Positions 46,737-54,175 of a stretch of DNA of 64,000 nucleotides are shown piece by piece. Under the pieces are notes generated by a model. The model had not been told where the DNA came from. It worked only from the letters and a program-made list of their open reading frames with translations, and searched no databases. Each line of letters starts with the position of its first letter. The stretch's first letter is position 1. Position numbers and translations under genes: made by a program. Source of the DNA: Polytrichum commune (taxonomy: Eukaryota; Streptophyta; Polytrichopsida; Polytrichales; Polytrichaceae); assembly GCA_950295325.1 (NCBI GenBank), contig OX485804.1, forward strand, positions 7,006,001 to 7,070,000. The letters run 5' to 3'.

Positions 46737-48195
46737 AAGGTGAATTGATCGCTAACTAGTGTGAGCCAGAATGTATGAATAGAAAATGGATATTCTTATT
46801 TTGTTCATGGGGCCCATAAAATATAAATGACATAATGCGATATTCCGAGGTCATTGAACCAACCCACATGGCTGATGTAATGTTATGAGGGTTTAGAGGT
46901 TATCACAGATTCATCCGAGTCACTGAAACAAATGCCCCTAGCCATATGCTCAGAACATATCATGCAACTGATATTCCTTCCTTATGATTATGTATATACA
47001 AAGGCTTGTATTGCGAGCTTGAAATTGGGATGAGCTTCTCATTTTGGAGAATTTGGGGCGCTGGTCAATCTATTAAGGCCAGGTGATGAAGGCTGGTTGT
47101 GAAGATCTTGCAAGTAGGTTAGGTTGTAGGTTGTAAGGTTTAAGTTCTTCCTGGGGCAATGCAAGGTGCAATCATGGTAGTCATTTATGAGGAGCTGATG
47201 CAATCGGAAATCTCTACTTGTTATGGTTGCATAGTTTATGCTCTGATTGCTTTAGTGCATGAAACTAATGAACTTGACTTTGAGCAATTCTAGCACACGT
47301 TGTATTAGGGTTCAATCGCTTAATGACTTCAATACAAATTGTAAAGAACACAATATAAGCTCCTCAAATGCCCATAGAACACAATTTAGGCTGCTATTAG
47401 GTCTTGGAGTTGTGAGTTATTGATCAGGTAAGCGCGGTATTCAACTGATCTATTTGTGAGATAGCTACTTTCTGTGAATGTGACTAGGGGAGTGAAGATT
47501 TCCGGTTTTGGCTGCGCAGACGCCCGGAGCTATTCATTTCTACTCTTATGCAAAAATTCTTTCCATTTCGACCAAACCCTTGGCATGTGTTATGCCACAA
47601 TCGCACGCTTCTGTGCAGGTTATCGTTAGGTTTAACCTTGTCCTAGATGTGATTTAGATTTTCAGGGTTTTTCTTTGGGGTAATGATTTGCTCTTAGCAT
47701 GTTTGCTTGTGGTGTTTGCGTGCACTGGGAATATCATACCCATAAATGACATACAACACAATCGCATAGTTGTTGCCAAAAAACAATTAGTTTCTGTGGA
47801 ACCAGATAACAGTCTACAACAACGTCAGCCAAACAAAGATGCTCTCAGGAGATGAAGGAGTCAAATTCAGTGACTGCAAAGAATATGTGACAACCCTGGC
47901 AGCAAATGGGCATGACAGAAAAAGGAGCTACATACAGGTGAAAGCAATCATCTTGCACCTTGGAGAGGGCTGGTGGCAAAAAAAGTCCTACTCCCAACCA
48001 ACAAACTTCCTGAGCATTCTGTTTCTTAAGGGATTTCAGCCAAACAGGATGAAATTAAACTCGGTGACTGCGAAGGATATGTGACAAACCTTGCAGTAAA
48101 TGGGCATGACAGAAAGGGGAGCTACATACCGGTAAAGGCAATCTTCACAAAACTTCACAAACTCTTGCTATCATCTCTTTCCGACTCCTCTTCTC
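46737..48195. other. Intergenic DNA left of the piggyBac element
   Basis: No gene recognised. A direct duplication lies at about 47,868-47,975 and 48,062-48,150, sharing GGGCATGACAGAAA and GAGCTACATAC. It ends just before the piggyBac target site. Confidence 0.45.
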
Positions 48196-48199
48196 TTAA

Positions 48200-48215
48200 C
48201 CCCTAACTGCCCGAG
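48200..48215 (+). repeat. Left terminal inverted repeat of piggyBac element
   Basis: CCCCTAACTGCCCGAG directly after TTAA. It is followed at 48,217-48,230 by the perfect palindrome GACCATATATGGTC, a likely subterminal transposase contact (inference). Confidence 0.92.
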
Positions 48216-48674
48216 CGACCATATATGGTCGACCAAAAATTTCGGCTCGTTTGGGTGTGGGCAGTTAAATTCCTTTGACCGTGGAAAAAAAATTTACGGG
48301 CAGTATAGGGAGGTAACTTGTGAGTTGAGGCTTTTTTGACAGAAAAAAATAAATATTTGATTTTAGAGAGGGCCTCAAAGGCATATATGTCATACTAGTA
48401 GAAGCGGGCAGCATTGGAGAACCAATAAGAAAATCCCTATCTCCAAGCGGGCAAGGAGAAAAAATAAATGTGGGTGCAATGGGTGTGGCTCTTGACAGAG
48501 TGAAAGATAATGGGCCCTTCATTGTAGGCAGCGGTACGTAGTTTGGCGCGGTAAAACATGAAATCGTAACCAATGGAATCACTCCATGCTTGCAACCTCC
48601 CAAATACAAGAATAGTGCACTGTAGCCACTGTGGCGGGGGGTAACGACCACCTCATCAATTCCAACCGCCTCTA

Positions 48675-48697
48675 TTACTTTCACGCCGTGAAAGTAA
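48675..48697. repeat. Perfect subterminal palindrome in piggyBac element
   Basis: TTACTTTCAC and GTGAAAGTAA flank GCC, giving 10-bp arms with no mismatch. It sits between the left end and the first reading frame, so it could be a protein-binding site or a hairpin in the leader. Confidence 0.8.
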
Positions 48698-48926
48698 CAA
48701 TTTGACGGTGGTCACAACTTCTTCAAATGAAAAAACCCACAAAAATTTATGCCAACAGAACGTTGCAAAGTAGTCCACCTAACTAATCGGTAAGAATTTT
48801 CATAACATACACAGACATTGTGCAAGATAACGGGTAGTAATGTGTTGAATGCAAAAGACGTGTATATATGTTTGATGAATTCGAATTTGAATTCACAAAT
48901 CTCTATTGCCATACAAATTTGTCACA

Positions 48927-49634
48927 ATGGACGAAATTCCTAATCCTCCTATGTCTCTTTGCTACTTGGGAGGACCAGTAGACATAATCCGAAATTGGGT
49001 GAAGTTGCAAGGTGCAAGTGCACAACAAGAGAGAATCATACTAGCTGCATTGGATTCTAACTATCTTACAAAGTTGCCCAAGCCAAGGAAGTGGCGAAAT
49101 ATCGGCACTATCCCAAGGAATATAGCGTTTAGATCTAGGTACTATCAACAAGTAGCTCACATTTTGGGGTGGAAGGAGAGACATGTCCGAGGATTTTCGG
49201 ATGCTGTGAGAGACACATTGAGAACAGTGGTCTGGCCAGATGGTGGAGAGGCACAAGGAGACATGGCAACAGATTGTCCTCACGGAGTTGGAGGAAAGAG
49301 GAGCTTTGACATTGATGTTGCAAGTGAGCGATCTGGGATGGCCAAAGGATGTGAGTGCAAGAAGGAAGCTGCCCAAGTTAGCAATCAAGAGGGGCACATC
49401 CAAGACAACAACAAAGACAGGAGTCACTTACACAAAAGGTTGGTCGGAGGGAAGGAAGCGTGCGGGAGAGAGATTGAGGATTGCTGCAAAGAAGGCGAGC
49501 ATATCGATGGCGGAGAAGGCATCAACAACAACAAACGAGCAAGGACACAAGAGGAAGGCCCTGGAAGCAATAGGGCTGCCACCAACACGAAAGGGAGAAC
49601 GGGACGTGTGCTCCCAAAGTGGTTCCATACATGA
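48927..49634 (+). CDS. Upstream piggyBac-internal frame A (N-terminal part of an unknown protein)
   Basis: The first ATG after a long leader opens MDEIPNPPMSLCYLGGPVDI. The first ~100 codons look like a folded domain (WVKLQGASAQQERIILAALD; YYQQVAHILGWKERHVRGFS). After about 49,236 the translation becomes low-complexity, while the +1 frame (frame B) begins there and reads sensibly. The simplest view is that A and B were one protein, now separated by a one-base shift, an unseen intron or programmed frameshifting. I do not recognise the fold. It lies inside the transposon, on the transposase strand. Confidence 0.5.
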   Translation: MDEIPNPPMSLCYLGGPVDIIRNWVKLQGASAQQERIILAALDSNYLTKLPKPRKWRNIGTIPRNIAFRSRYYQQVAHILGWKERHVRGFSDAVRDTLRTVVWPDGGEAQGDMATDCPHGVGGKRSFDIDVASERSGMAKGCECKKEAAQVSNQEGHIQDNNKDRSHLHKRLVGGKEACGREIEDCCKEGEHIDGGEGINNNKRARTQEEGPGSNRAATNTKGRTGRVLPKWFHT

Positions 49635-51237
49635 CAGATTCACAGAGCTTATGGTAGAAGACCATGGAGTAGCAGTGAGGGTACCAAAGTACGTTGTGAA
49701 TGACTTAGAGCAATCGCAAAAGGATGAACAAGATTTAGATTGGATGTTAGGTGTTGTGCAAAGGAGCTACATTGATTTGCAGTCAAATGTTAGTATGTAT
49801 GATGTTTTATTTGCTGATGGAACTAGCAAATGTATTCCAAGTGGCTTCACGGAGCACATTTTGAGGCATGAAAACAATTCAATACAACCCATGAAAAATG
49901 TTGAGGCAACTTGTAATATTTCGAGTGATGATGAGTCTGAAGATGAAGAGGGCATTAGAGATGGAGACGACTGTTGGCCATGTGAATCACCTGATGACAT
50001 TCATGAGCAAACAGCAGAATGGGCGGGCTGGGCAGAAAGGCTAGAAAATCACGATGATTTGCAGCAACAAAATGGAACTAACTTGCAGCACAGCAAAGGA
50101 GCAAGGATGGTTGGAAGCAGTAGAATACCTTCTGTCACAGAGAAGTCCGAAGCACCGAGGAAGAATACTGCAGTAGCCTCACTGCTCCGAAAATCTGTGG
50201 GAGACGGCAATGGCTATCAGAAGGCAGGGCAGAAAAAAAAAATACCAAAATTGAGGCGGATCGGAGACGTACCTGGTCGAACAATGAGGCTCAGGTCGGC
50301 GACGATGAATGCTGCAGTGAAATCGCAGCACAGACTTCCAGCAATCTGCAATGGTTCTCACAAACAAAAACAAAAAACAGCACAAAAGGATGGGTGCGGG
50401 GACGTACCTGGTGATGTCCACCTGCAAGGTTTGGCTGAGCCGAGTGTGACCCATCTGCCGGAATGTGCCAAGACATTCACGAACGGCAACAATCAGCCAA
50501 AAAATCCAGTAAGAAGGGGTGGGTGCGGGGACGCACTTGCTGCAGCGGAATTTGATGTCGCAGCTGGGAGCAGTCGATGTTTGACGTCTCCGCACGGATC
50601 TCCGAATTCGGTGTCGCCGCTGGGACAGTCGGGGGACGCACCTGCTGCCGTGGGGTTCCTCGGAGCTGCAATCCTCCACAATCCTGCGCAGGTGGCCACA
50701 GGGGCAAGCTGCAATCCTCCACAGAGGCCACAGGGTGAAGCAATCACAGCAAAAAAAAAGATTTTCTGCAGACAGAAGGTGAATCGACCCTGTGAAGAGG
50801 GGTGCGTTCACTTACAGCAGCAAGGGGGGATCGACGACGTCCTCGGCCTGACTCCAGTAGCTGCGCCTCCACTGCAATCCGACGTTCCAATCCGGCGCAT
50901 CTGCAATCCAGCAAGGAGGGGTGAGATCGGCCGGCCAAGGGGGAAGCGCCCGGCAGGAGCTAGCGCTGGAGCTCGCAAGAAACTGAAGTCAACAAGGCAG
51001 GCAAGCATCGGGGAGAGTGATGGAAGGGAGACTACTGGAGGGAAGAGCAATGCCGCGTACAGCAGGGAGAGGGCGGGGATTGTGCTGCTCGGCGAAGCCA
51101 GCAGAGCACCAGTGCAGACAGCAGGGCACCACCCAGCAAGACATGCTGGTAACTTGTTTTTTTTGGTTTTTTTTGGAGCTATATTCATCTGTTTCTGTTT
51201 CTGGTGGAATATGAAGCACCATGTGAGAGTGCAGTGA
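49240..51237 (+). CDS. Upstream piggyBac-internal frame B with Tudor-like and acidic segments
   Basis: 665 codons from an ATG inside frame A. Residues ~40-110 are basic (KLPKLAIKRGTSKTTTKTG). Residues ~143-210 resemble a Tudor/Agenet-type chromatin reader (VAVRVPKYVV ... DWMLGVVQRSY ... YDVLFADGTSKCIPSGF). Residues ~229-255 are acidic (SSDDESEDEEG), like the acidic N-termini of piggyBac transposases. From ~310 on it is GC-rich low-complexity over tandem repeats and ends in an unlikely hydrophobic tail, so the true product probably stops or is spliced earlier. It may be the N-terminus of the transposase: a good acceptor lies at 51,358 and a good donor (GTAAGA) at 50,509. Alternatively it is a separate accessory protein. 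Confidence 0.5.
   Translation: MVERHKETWQQIVLTELEERGALTLMLQVSDLGWPKDVSARRKLPKLAIKRGTSKTTTKTGVTYTKGWSEGRKRAGERLRIAAKKASISMAEKASTTTNEQGHKRKALEAIGLPPTRKGERDVCSQSGSIHDRFTELMVEDHGVAVRVPKYVVNDLEQSQKDEQDLDWMLGVVQRSYIDLQSNVSMYDVLFADGTSKCIPSGFTEHILRHENNSIQPMKNVEATCNISSDDESEDEEGIRDGDDCWPCESPDDIHEQTAEWAGWAERLENHDDLQQQNGTNLQHSKGARMVGSSRIPSVTEKSEAPRKNTAVASLLRKSVGDGNGYQKAGQKKKIPKLRRIGDVPGRTMRLRSATMNAAVKSQHRLPAICNGSHKQKQKTAQKDGCGDVPGDVHLQGLAEPSVTHLPECAKTFTNGNNQPKNPVRRGGCGDALAAAEFDVAAGSSRCLTSPHGSPNSVSPLGQSGDAPAAVGFLGAAILHNPAQVATGASCNPPQRPQGEAITAKKKIFCRQKVNRPCEEGCVHLQQQGGIDDVLGLTPVAAPPLQSDVPIRRICNPARRGEIGRPRGKRPAGASAGARKKLKSTRQASIGESDGRETTGGKSNAAYSRERAGIVLLGEASRAPVQTAGHHPARHAGNLFFLVFFGAIFICFCFWWNMKHHVRVQ
50180..50960. 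repeat. Degenerate tandem repeats of ~130-150 bp with a GGGTGCGGGGACG core
   Basis: The core recurs near 50,264 (GATCGGAGACGTACCTGG), 50,394 (GGGTGCGGGGACGTACCTGG), 50,521 (GGGTGCGGGGACGCACTTGC) and 50,637 (GGGGGACGCACCTGCTG), each preceded by an A-rich stretch. A weaker unit follows near 50,750-50,800. Read on the minus strand the cores look like CAG|GTACGTC splice donors followed by pyrimidine tracts. They lie within the piggyBac element. Confidence 0.65.
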
Positions 51238-51319
51238 GCTTTGGGGCCAAGGTGTGCATTTTTTGGTTATTTTCTCTTTTCTAAATAAATGACTTGTTCA
51301 CAGCAGAGACTGAAACCAT

Positions 51320-53008
51320 ATGCTTATCAAAGTTTATGCTTTTGTGGTGTTGGCAGCATGTGCAAAAAAGGGTGAATTGTTGGATAATGAAGTTGTGGGT
51401 AGACAGAAGAGGGGGCATATAAAATTACCAACCTTGAAAGAAATTTACTGTGATGCATCGTGGCAAAAGACAGTCTCCACATTTGATCCGGCACCTGCTA
51501 AATTTAGGGGTCCGTCACCAGGCTTGCCAATCCCTTCTAATAAAATGCCCACGTTGTATACCTTGTTCCATAAGTTCTGGACTCCTCACACATTACGTAA
51601 AATATGTGCGGAGACAAATAGGTATGCATCGGAGATAAACCCACGTTCTAAATGCACTCCCAAAAAGTTACGGGGTGGGGATACGTGGTTTGCCTTACAC
51701 CCACCGGAGTTGAGGGCCTTTTTAGCAATTTCTTTATATATGGGGATAAAAATTGAGCCCAATGTAAGGTCTTATTGGAAAAAATCCTGTGATTTTTTGT
51801 GGTGCCCGGTTATATCCTCAATTATGACCCGGAATCGCTATGAACACATTATTCGTTGCTTACATGTGCATAATGACCATGCCGCAACTACGGATCGGTC
51901 AAGCGGGGACTTTGACAAATTGGTAAAATTACGGTGGCTATTGGATGAGATTAGGGATCGTTGTAAGGGCATGTGGAATTTAGGGAATAAGGTTACCGTA
52001 GACGAGATGATGGTACAATACAAGGGCAAGTATTGTCTCATCCGTCAATACATGCCTAAAAAGCCCACTAAGTGGGGAATCAAGGTATGGTGTCTTACGG
52101 ACTCTACATCGAGATACGTATGGACTTTCGACGTATATTGTGGGGCCAATAAGGGGGTTCCCGGAATCAAAGGGTCTAAGAAAGGGGAGGCTAAGCAAGG
52201 GGCAAATGTGGTACACGCATTATTGAAGGGGTTGGAGAATAGGGGCCACATAGTAGTTATGGATAACTTTTTTTCTTCAGTGCCCTTGTTTATGGAACTT
52301 TTGGAGAAGGGCACCTATGCGACGGGCACGGTTAGGGCCGACCGTATTGGCCTTCCAACCGCCCTCGCTAAAAAATCACTTTATGCAAAGTCCCCTCAAG
52401 GACATTTAGAGTGGAGGATGCATGCATCCAAAAAACTTAGTGCTATTGTATGGGTGGATAAAAAACCTGTCCTTGTGATGTCCACCGTGGCCCCACCAAT
52501 CCATGGGGTAGGGGAAGAATGTCCGGTGGTCTCACGGCGGGTGGGTTCCGTGCGTAAGGATGTTGAGACCTCCCCTATGCATTACCAATACACAACCTAT
52601 ATGCGGGGGGTAGATGTGGCGGACCAACTAAGGGGAGAATATTCCTCTCAAGTTCGGACTCATAAGTGGTGGCACAGGCTTTTTTTCTTTCTTTTGGACA
52701 CTACCGTGGTAAACACGTGGAAACTACATTGCGCACAGTCTTTGACTCTAGGAAACCGACCTTTGAGTCACAAATCTTTTCAATTACGCTTGGCCAAAGT
52801 TTTGGCCTCACACCACCTCCGGTCCCGCAAGTGCACTTCTCGGTACAATCGGCATGTCGGACTTCTTCATATGCCCATGTGGAGCCCACACCGCAAAGTT
52901 TGTTGTGAATGCCGCATACGGTGCCAAACTTATTGTCCTTGTTGCCTTGGGCATCATATGCATATTGGAGAATGTTGGGCGGCGGTGCACCGGCCCATTT
53001 TCGATTGA
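51320..53008 (+). CDS. piggyBac transposase (DDD, DDE_Tnp_1_7 family), intact
   Basis: Cuts the element precisely out of TTAA sites and reinserts it by an RNase-H-like mechanism, in the nucleus (family knowledge). Of 562 codons, residues ~75-470 form the catalytic core. D228 (VTVDEMMVQYKG), D315 (VVMDNFFSS) and D432 with D435 (YMRGVDVADQLR) match the piggyBac acidic triad and its extra Asp. A cross-brace-like Cys/His domain closes the protein (KVCCECRIRCQTYCPCCLG, then HHMHIGEC, 526-552), as in animal piggyBacs that use it to bind the ends. The first ~15 residues may be intron-encoded: TGTTGGCAG at 51,350-51,358 is a good acceptor, so the true N-terminus could come from upstream exons. No internal stops or shifts. 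Confidence 0.95.
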   Translation: MLIKVYAFVVLAACAKKGELLDNEVVGRQKRGHIKLPTLKEIYCDASWQKTVSTFDPAPAKFRGPSPGLPIPSNKMPTLYTLFHKFWTPHTLRKICAETNRYASEINPRSKCTPKKLRGGDTWFALHPPELRAFLAISLYMGIKIEPNVRSYWKKSCDFLWCPVISSIMTRNRYEHIIRCLHVHNDHAATTDRSSGDFDKLVKLRWLLDEIRDRCKGMWNLGNKVTVDEMMVQYKGKYCLIRQYMPKKPTKWGIKVWCLTDSTSRYVWTFDVYCGANKGVPGIKGSKKGEAKQGANVVHALLKGLENRGHIVVMDNFFSSVPLFMELLEKGTYATGTVRADRIGLPTALAKKSLYAKSPQGHLEWRMHASKKLSAIVWVDKKPVLVMSTVAPPIHGVGEECPVVSRRVGSVRKDVETSPMHYQYTTYMRGVDVADQLRGEYSSQVRTHKWWHRLFFFLLDTTVVNTWKLHCAQSLTLGNRPLSHKSFQLRLAKVLASHHLRSRKCTSRYNRHVGLLHMPMWSPHRKVCCECRIRCQTYCPCCLGHHMHIGECWAAVHRPIFD

Positions 53009-54155
53009 AGGTAATGCTCATCAATAAGTTTTATTTTTTTTACATTTGTACCCTCAATATGCAAAAGGCAGCTAAAATGCCATTAGAAACAATGTTCATA
53101 TGTAAAAGTTAGGCATGTTTGAAAATATATGTAAAAACCACGAGGTGAAAGTGATTTTAGTGACATTCTAGGGGGCTGTGATTCCTTTTTGTTGGATTGT
53201 ACAACTGAGAACATGCACAAACATTGTAGCTACCGGTCAAAAAAAGTTGCACGCTAAAATAGTTGATTATGTAGAAGTTATGACCTATTGACTAATGTTG
53301 ATTATTGGGGCAGCACCTTGTATGGCGGGACCGGGAGCGGCGGGCTAAATTTTAGAATAGATAAGTACTTCATTTAGTGGATAGGCTCAATTGAGGTGGC
53401 AAGTAGGTGGCAATTAGGTGACGACTAGGTGGTAGGTTGGAGGAAGTACCTTGTTAGAGGGAAAAGGGAACCACCCATGATGTAGGCAATAGGAGGTAGG
53501 TTGGACAAGGTACCTTGTAGGCGGAGAGGGGTCCCACCCATGATGTTGGGAATGGGCGGTGGTAGTTCTTCATTATTTCCCAAATGTTTTTGCTAATTGG
53601 ACCAATTTACTTATTTTTGACATCCACGGAGTTCCCGTATGTCATTTCTTTTGAGAATTGTTGCACTGGAAAGAGTAAAAAAATCCTGTTCTTTTCACCG
53701 TCAAATATTACTAATCACGACCATTGATGTGAAGCAATTTTCCATATGAAATTGTCAAGTGTTAAAAAAAACAAATGCGTTTCACCAATTGCAAGGAGGA
53801 GTGCGAATTAGATTTGGGTAGGTCTACATGCACACATAGGGTCATTGGATTCACATTTTTGTTCTCTTCAACATGATGGGGTTGTTCGTGTCACCTCTAA
53901 CTACCAAAAATACTTATGACCAATTTTAGCCAACATTGTGAGGAGGGGCAGCATACTAAAAAAAGATTACACACATTTATCTACATTGAATTTCACAACT
54001 ATTATGCAATCAAGGACTCAAAATTGGTGTACTTACTAATATACAAGTTCTAATCACATCTATACGGTTAGATTTTGGATCAAAGATCAATTCATGGCTT
54101 GGGGATTGTAGTAAAGACATGCACTATTTTATTAGAAAAAACGTCCATGGAGGGA
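53009..54155. other. Right subterminal region of the piggyBac element, non-coding
   Basis: Between the transposase stop and the right end. A tandem duplication of about 66 bp lies at 53,431-53,562 (TAGGTTGGAGGAAGTACCTT and TAGGTTGGACAAGGTACCTT, each followed by ACCCATGATGT). No gene recognised. Confidence 0.65.
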
Positions 54156-54171
54156 CTCGGGCATTTAGGGG
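54156..54171 (-). repeat. Right terminal inverted repeat of piggyBac element
   Basis: CTCGGGCATTTAGGGG directly before TTAA. It is the inverse of the left end with one mismatch. Confidence 0.92.
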
Positions 54172-54175
54172 TTAA

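Follow-up and report, generated by a model that had tools for sequence, protein, structure and literature searches.

A recently mobile piggyBac-superfamily transposon in a land-plant chromosome, with evidence for a larger and probably spliced transposase gene

Introduction

Can an intact piggyBac transposon reside in a plant chromosome and have moved there recently, and what does its transposase gene look like? The question is raised by an insertion in a 64,000-nucleotide stretch of the Polytrichum commune assembly (C2:7006001-7070000, hereafter the window, whose numbering gives all element coordinates). An earlier note, made from the letters of the window, had described this insertion as a complete piggyBac element with an uninterrupted transposase, integrated in a plant chromosome and recently mobile. 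Taken as a whole, and with genome counts drawn from the entire 407.8-Mb assembly (64 contigs), the evidence makes it very probable that a DNA transposon of the piggyBac superfamily, complete in length and mobile until recently, sits here in the chromosome of a land plant, with a larger and most likely spliced transposase gene. The host is probably a moss, and the earlier description probably understates both the size of the gene and how unusual it is.

Results and discussion

Ends and catalytic domain of the element

The element spans 48200-54171 (5,972 bp) and is bounded on the left (48196-48199) and on the right (54172-54175) by its TTAA target site. Short terminal inverted repeats, as in the piggyBac superfamily, are present: the left 16-bp repeat, CCCCTAACTGCCCGAG, lies at 48200-48215 on the plus strand, and the right 16-bp repeat (54156-54171, minus strand) reads CTCGGGCATTTAGGGG on the forward strand and CCCCTAAATGCCCGAG as its reverse complement, with one mismatch to the left. 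A 20-mer made of TTAA and the end occurs 464 times in the genome at up to two mismatches (224 + 240), against a single occurrence (0 + 1) of the reversed control pattern, so the end motif is not a chance match. Directly inside the left repeat is a subterminal palindrome, CGACCATATATGGTCG (48216-48231), which in most of the short derivatives described below reads CAACCATATATGGTTG or near it, with both arms changed. That derivatives and autonomous copies differ on both arms while the symmetry is kept suggests a binding site, and the palindrome is a possible candidate for the site bound by the transposase. Outside the element, immediately to the left of the insertion, a direct repeat of ~90 bp (86% identical) occupies 47863-47952 and ~48057-48146.

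The open reading frame (ORF) at 51320-53008 runs for 562 amino acids with no internal stop and matches PF13843 (DDE_Tnp_1_7) with E = 2.5e-80. Aligned by phmmer, its residues D228, D315, D432 and D435 fall in register with D268, D346, D447 and D450 of T. ni piggyBac (6x67), which we take to be the catalytic residues of piggyBac. Among PDB entries the best match is piggyBat (9c0f, E = 5e-24), covering residues 95-470 of the window ORF, and T. ni piggyBac (6x67) matches with E = 5e-23. The completeness of the element, the open frame and the four aspartates claimed by the earlier note are thereby borne out. As for the C-terminal Cys/His (cross-brace zinc finger) domain of the superfamily, by eye the C-terminus is rich in Cys and His, in the window protein as in two elements of another family of the genome (L053 and L054); the window protein has no Pfam match other than PF13843 at E up to 0.1, and none on this C-terminus. 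By analogy with the family, the DDD transposase would excise the element at its ends and insert it into TTAA.

The catalytic DDE exon is placed at 51357-53008 on the plus strand, with its aspartate codons at 52001, 52262, 52613 and 52622; the exon start is a predicted one. The ATG at 51320 was rejected as the start of the protein, because coding stretches farther upstream are conserved and a T-rich stretch ends in AG at 51356; this ATG is probably intronic. As judged from the sequence, the 562-codon ORF is probably only the catalytic part of a transposase gene that starts farther upstream.

Related copies and empty sites

At least 118 PF13843 matches are found in the genome, ranging from intact to heavily broken. 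The earlier note had proposed a search for further copies with the same ends, and selection by exact ends yields six full-length copies in five chromosome-size contigs, 5,971-6,377 bp long and with TTAA at both ends in all six: the window copy (C2), C4, C1a, C1b, C3 and C6. Between the window copy and C4, 5,971 bases align, with 8 differences and one gap base; C1b and C3 have 3 differences over 6,060 bases, and C1a and C6 have 43 over 6,375 bases and three gap bases.

Related empty sites were sought for five of the six insertions (all but C6), with 40 of 3,867 and 40 of 3,884 candidates scored, and were found for two of the five. For C4, a paralogue at C3:21223041 (L062) continues uninterrupted through the join and has a single TCAA as the equivalent of TTAA. 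For C1b, 18 matches of at least 100 bp, plus one shorter, cross the join uninterrupted. For these two copies the related empty sites show that insertion occurred exactly at TTAA. The earlier note had named a lack of other copies or empty sites anywhere as an outcome that would undo its reading; six copies, and related empty sites for two of them, are what the genome contains. Its claim of recent mobility is upheld by the near-identical pairs and the empty sites, and on these sequence comparisons the piggyBac family here is recently mobile in a land plant.

At the right flank of the C3 copy (C3:11878515), many genomic repeats of ~70 bp start at or beside the TTAA of the insertion, as if this copy had landed at the edge of another repeat.

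Chimeric copies and short derivatives

Two of the six copies change character along their length. From 51263 to the right end, identity to the window copy is 99.2% for C1a and 98.9% for C6, whereas it falls to 81.8% and 82.2% over 48200-49999 and to only 52%, with many gaps, over 50000-51255. The left part of C1a is ~96-97% identical to the decayed old copies L045, L044 and L046 (on C1 and C7), the right parts of which are 71-79% identical to the window copy. The right end (53009-54175) has 44 matches in the genome, of which the six copies are at least 99% identical and the rest 71-80%. Since the left and right identities of C1a and C6 differ, two subfamilies appear to have exchanged halves: by sequence, both copies are chimeras of an old-type left half and a young-type right half, with the switch near 51,256 (approximate breakpoint 51256-51262). 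The switch point would fall inside the probable intron described below. Copies of this family may thus exchange left and right halves.

The genome also contains short, internally deleted derivatives. Thirty end loci were read. Eleven of them lie within 1.5 kb of a partner end, and these 11 derivatives, once aligned, all measure 824-827 bp between their TTAAs and are 96.4-99.8% identical; four loci with an ...AAG end (L026, L034, L037 and L038) have no partner end within 1.5 kb, and the remaining 15 belong to autonomous copies, full-length or decayed. L027, the only derivative compared by BLAST, joins ~198 bp of left end to 638 bp of right end and is 91-96% identical to the old copies L044 and L046, as against 79-82% to the window copy. 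Genome-wide, the left-end pattern at up to three mismatches occurs at 84 sites (control, 0); nine of these belong to full-length or decayed autonomous copies, which leaves ~75 derivative left ends, 11 of them traced to their other end. Such internally deleted copies (824-827 bp where examined) would be mobilised in trans by the transposase of the same or a related family.

A conserved coding module upstream of the catalytic exon

On the plus strand, ahead of the catalytic exon, lies a coding module at 48927-49239, which may be an N-terminal exon of the transposase gene or part of a separate first ORF. Between the window copy and C1a its differences by codon position number 5/8/21, with a ratio of nonsynonymous to synonymous divergence (dN/dS) of 0.30; it is read as coding because the differences concentrate at third codon positions. 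The module is conserved between piggyBac families: relatives at 30-32% identity occur in L056 and in a set of elements that we group here as family B (L053, L054, L055, L057-L060). With a family-B member as query, 36 module places are found in the genome, family C (L063-L068) among them, and one more from another search brings the total to 37. In 32 of the 37 a PF13843 match follows downstream on the same strand within 10 kb, and in 33 of the 37 within 25 kb, while no other arrangement of module and piggyBac match occurs inside 25 kb; under random placement the mean for the expected arrangement is 0.04, a comparison in which near-identical copies are counted apart, and so are not independent, and in which one chromosome length was guessed. 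Conversely, a module is present within 12 kb upstream of 23 of the 27 best transposase matches.

An alignment of nine module members has 15 invariant columns, and none of the nine members scanned, which include no family-C element, has a Pfam match. The best PDB profile matches of the module (E = 0.06 and 0.11) are weak and were taken as chance. No relatives were found in viral contigs, where three stretches fitted a pattern and none was confirmed. The module may bind DNA or the transposase, a putative role. The element appears to carry a conserved extra front part that goes unmentioned in descriptions of its animal relatives.

One module, at C6:37911847-37912206, is 100% identical over 120 amino acids to that of L054 (C6:41615152, family B), and no piggyBac transposase match is found near it. 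Two family-C elements, C6:30061660 and C6:30483005, lie 0.42 Mb apart with equal transposase match scores and are possibly a segmental duplication.

One spliced gene or two proteins

By codon phase, the window element has at least three coding stretches. The module is followed on the plus strand by a spacer at 49240-49399 with no codon-phase bias (12/14/14), which could be a short intron or a fast-evolving linker, and then by a second coding stretch at 49400-49990. This second stretch is in the +1 frame relative to 48927, forms part of an ORF at 49240-51237 and ends in an acidic Ser/Asp/Glu-rich tract. Compared with C1a, its first part (49400-49634) has mixed phase counts of 22/12/20; over the rest, 49635-49990, the counts of 33/10/13 are those of sequence coding in the +1 frame. 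Beyond it, 50060-51356 on the plus strand is unconserved and probably an intron: 50060-51250 has no phase bias (163/170/181), and a genome search with it matches four young-type copies only. Capture of host sequence was considered for 50060-51250 and rejected, since the stretch is present only in those four copies. The probable intron differs in length between the C2/C4 and C1b/C3 pairs. By eye, units resembling GGGACGYACCTGSTG recur at 50200-50800, inside it.

The arrangement that best accommodates these features is one in which the module, the second coding stretch (49400 to ~49990) and the catalytic exon (from ~51357) are most likely joined by splicing. Family B points the same way. The module exons of L053 and L054 end in a donor-like GCAG/GT, and in L053, L054 and L007 a transposase frame of 926-946 codons starts after an acceptor-like AG/GTGGGCA; in L053 and L054 the donor and acceptor phases match, with intron lengths of 2,724 and 2,484 bp.

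The strongest competitor takes the module to be no exon at all, but a separate accessory protein, ORF1 (236 amino acids, 48927-49634), overlapping the transposase gene. PIF/Harbinger elements are two-gene transposons with a separate accessory DNA-binding protein required for transposition, and their transposase family and target site differ from those of piggyBac. The window element would resemble them in possibly dividing its coding between a first, DNA-binding-like ORF and a transposase, and differs in that its type of module has no Pfam match in nine members. Overlap of ORF1 with the next ORF by ~400 nt, in the same +1 relation, is common to the window family and family C (L063), and in both an ATG of the second ORF stands, by eye, near the end of the module. 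The middle phase is also the lowest over 49400-49634, as dual coding would give. Set against this are the near-absence of phase bias in either frame over 49240-49399 and over L063 ~638-757, which fits a short intron, and the phase-matched, donor-like and acceptor-like boundaries of L053 and L054. We regard the two-protein arrangement as doubtful, though not remote.

Several observations count against a single spliced gene with a conserved module. The second stretch is weakly constrained (dN/dS of 0.54 over 49402-49860), and constraint over 49239-49401 is weaker still, at 0.71 and 0.67 in two frames. In the window element there is one candidate donor, at 49351 (GTGAGT, with the GT kept in C1a), and no conserved donor between 49940 and 50300. 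Both frames are open through the overlap at 49240-49634, as separate overlapping ORFs would allow. A comparison of 49402-50067 with the N-terminal region of family B by hhalign, of low power with two and three sequences, detects no similarity (probability 1.4%), so homology between them is not supported. Four of the 37 modules have no transposase match within 25 kb, and four of the 27 best transposase matches have no module within 12 kb. An AlphaFold model of the module alone is unusable (mean predicted local distance difference test score, pLDDT, of 48.7), and for this reason a DNA-binding role is without structural support. On balance, we consider splicing more likely than overlapping ORFs.

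Tentatively, and well below the confidence that we place in the element itself, the genome may harbour a distinct, still-mobile plant branch of piggyBac with a conserved N-terminal module that lacks a Pfam match, in the transposase or in a partner protein, and that evolves by swapping N-terminal/left-end and catalytic/right-end halves. If so, old and young subfamilies trade transposase modules and transposon ends.

Relic, duplication or artefact

Near-identity of copies could also arise by gene conversion or duplication, in which case the element would be an inactive relic or part of a segmental duplication. In favour of this reading, the chimeric copies show that copies do recombine or convert one another, and the catalytic frame of C6 is broken. 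For the insertions of the window copy, C1a and C3, moreover, the scored candidates include no related empty site, which counts against recent transposition. However, directly outside the TTAAs the 200-bp flanks of the six copies are unrelated, save for a dispersed 69-bp repeat common to the left of C1b and the right of C3, and clean insertion is seen at the empty sites of two copies. Five of the six copies keep an open catalytic frame of 564 codons (stop to stop), and in comparison with two old copies, both decayed, catalytic dN/dS is 0.089 and 0.109, values for which dS exceeds 1 and is near saturation. A relic or duplication is accordingly very unlikely.

An assembly artefact or contaminant, such as animal DNA in the plant sample, for which we found nothing beyond the animal-centred documentation of the superfamily in the available text of PMC12732532, is highly improbable given six copies with differing flanks in five chromosome-size contigs, at least 118 piggyBac domain matches that range from intact to heavily broken, and the presence in this genome of empty sites related to two of the insertions. 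Integration in a plant chromosome, as the earlier note had it, is supported further by 58 chlorophyll a/b-binding matches in the genome, which identify the host as a plant. That it is probably a moss is suggested by one protein: an LHCB stretch (L047) finds 8htu_U and 7xqp_a as its top single-stretch PDB matches, above the remaining land-plant chains, and of these 7XQP is from Physcomitrium patens (PMC12589708) while 8HTU is called 'PpPSI-L' (PMC10005731). A longer chain, 9vfj_2 (LHCI-2), has a higher total score, though none of its stretches passes singly.

Relation to known piggyBac elements

T. ni piggyBac has a TTAA target, short inverted ends and a Cys/His-rich C-terminus, as does the window element (for the C-terminus, by eye), and the likeness (6x67/6x68) extends to the DDE domain with its four aligned aspartates. 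The window element differs from T. ni piggyBac in its length of ~6.0 kb and in having coding stretches well ahead of the catalytic exon, and by the same two features from piggyBat of Myotis lucifugus (9c0f; PMC11707139), the best PDB sequence match of the window transposase. The available text of PMC11707139 gives non-conserved, predicted disordered N-terminal regions as a defining characteristic of the superfamily; the window-type upstream module, in contrast, is conserved between families. If it is part of the transposase, the module would contradict the view of piggyBac N-termini as non-conserved and disordered. Beetle PB elements, as far as PMC12732532 is available, share TTAA duplications, short inverted ends and one DDE transposase, yet are 2,074-3,465 bp long and contain one ORF only, of ~500-725 amino acids, compared with 5,972 bp and three or more coding stretches here.

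The superfamily is best documented in animals (PMC12732532, available text), and the earlier note held that intact elements are seldom reported from land plants. That rarity is relative, because piggyBac has been listed there before, and its presence in a land plant is not new by itself. In the available text of these sources, a superfamily table places PiggyBac in all groups studied, land plants included (PMC4438587), a Ceratopteris repeat table gives 1,230 PiggyBac hits (PMC6890710), PiggyBac is among the superfamilies of angiosperm miniature inverted-repeat transposable elements (PMC10004981), and insects, fungi and plants are given as sources of isolated piggyBac (PMC10813416). The annotations of PMC6890710, PMC4438587 and PMC10004981 bear the same superfamily label as the window element; within that text, neither an intact multi-copy element nor empty sites nor an N-terminal module is described. 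Among the listed matches of a piggyBac and plant literature search, no title or abstract opening mentions a native bryophyte piggyBac, and in the available text of a moss genome paper (PMC10619864) 'piggybacking' is the sole related word.

If active, the element would represent a piggyBac native to plants and accompanied by derivatives of its own, useful for studying the life of the superfamily in plants, and a possible footprint-free tool. The conserved module offers a defined stretch whose role is testable, and the chimeric copies amount to a natural experiment on the matching required between ends and protein halves.

Genomic context

Elsewhere in the window, Pfam matches include Malectin-like and adaptin-binding domains. 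The listed search matches fall on C1-C7, which suggests seven chromosomes. At C5:1751760-1846160, 14 chlorophyll a/b-binding genes are clustered, with identical domain scores.

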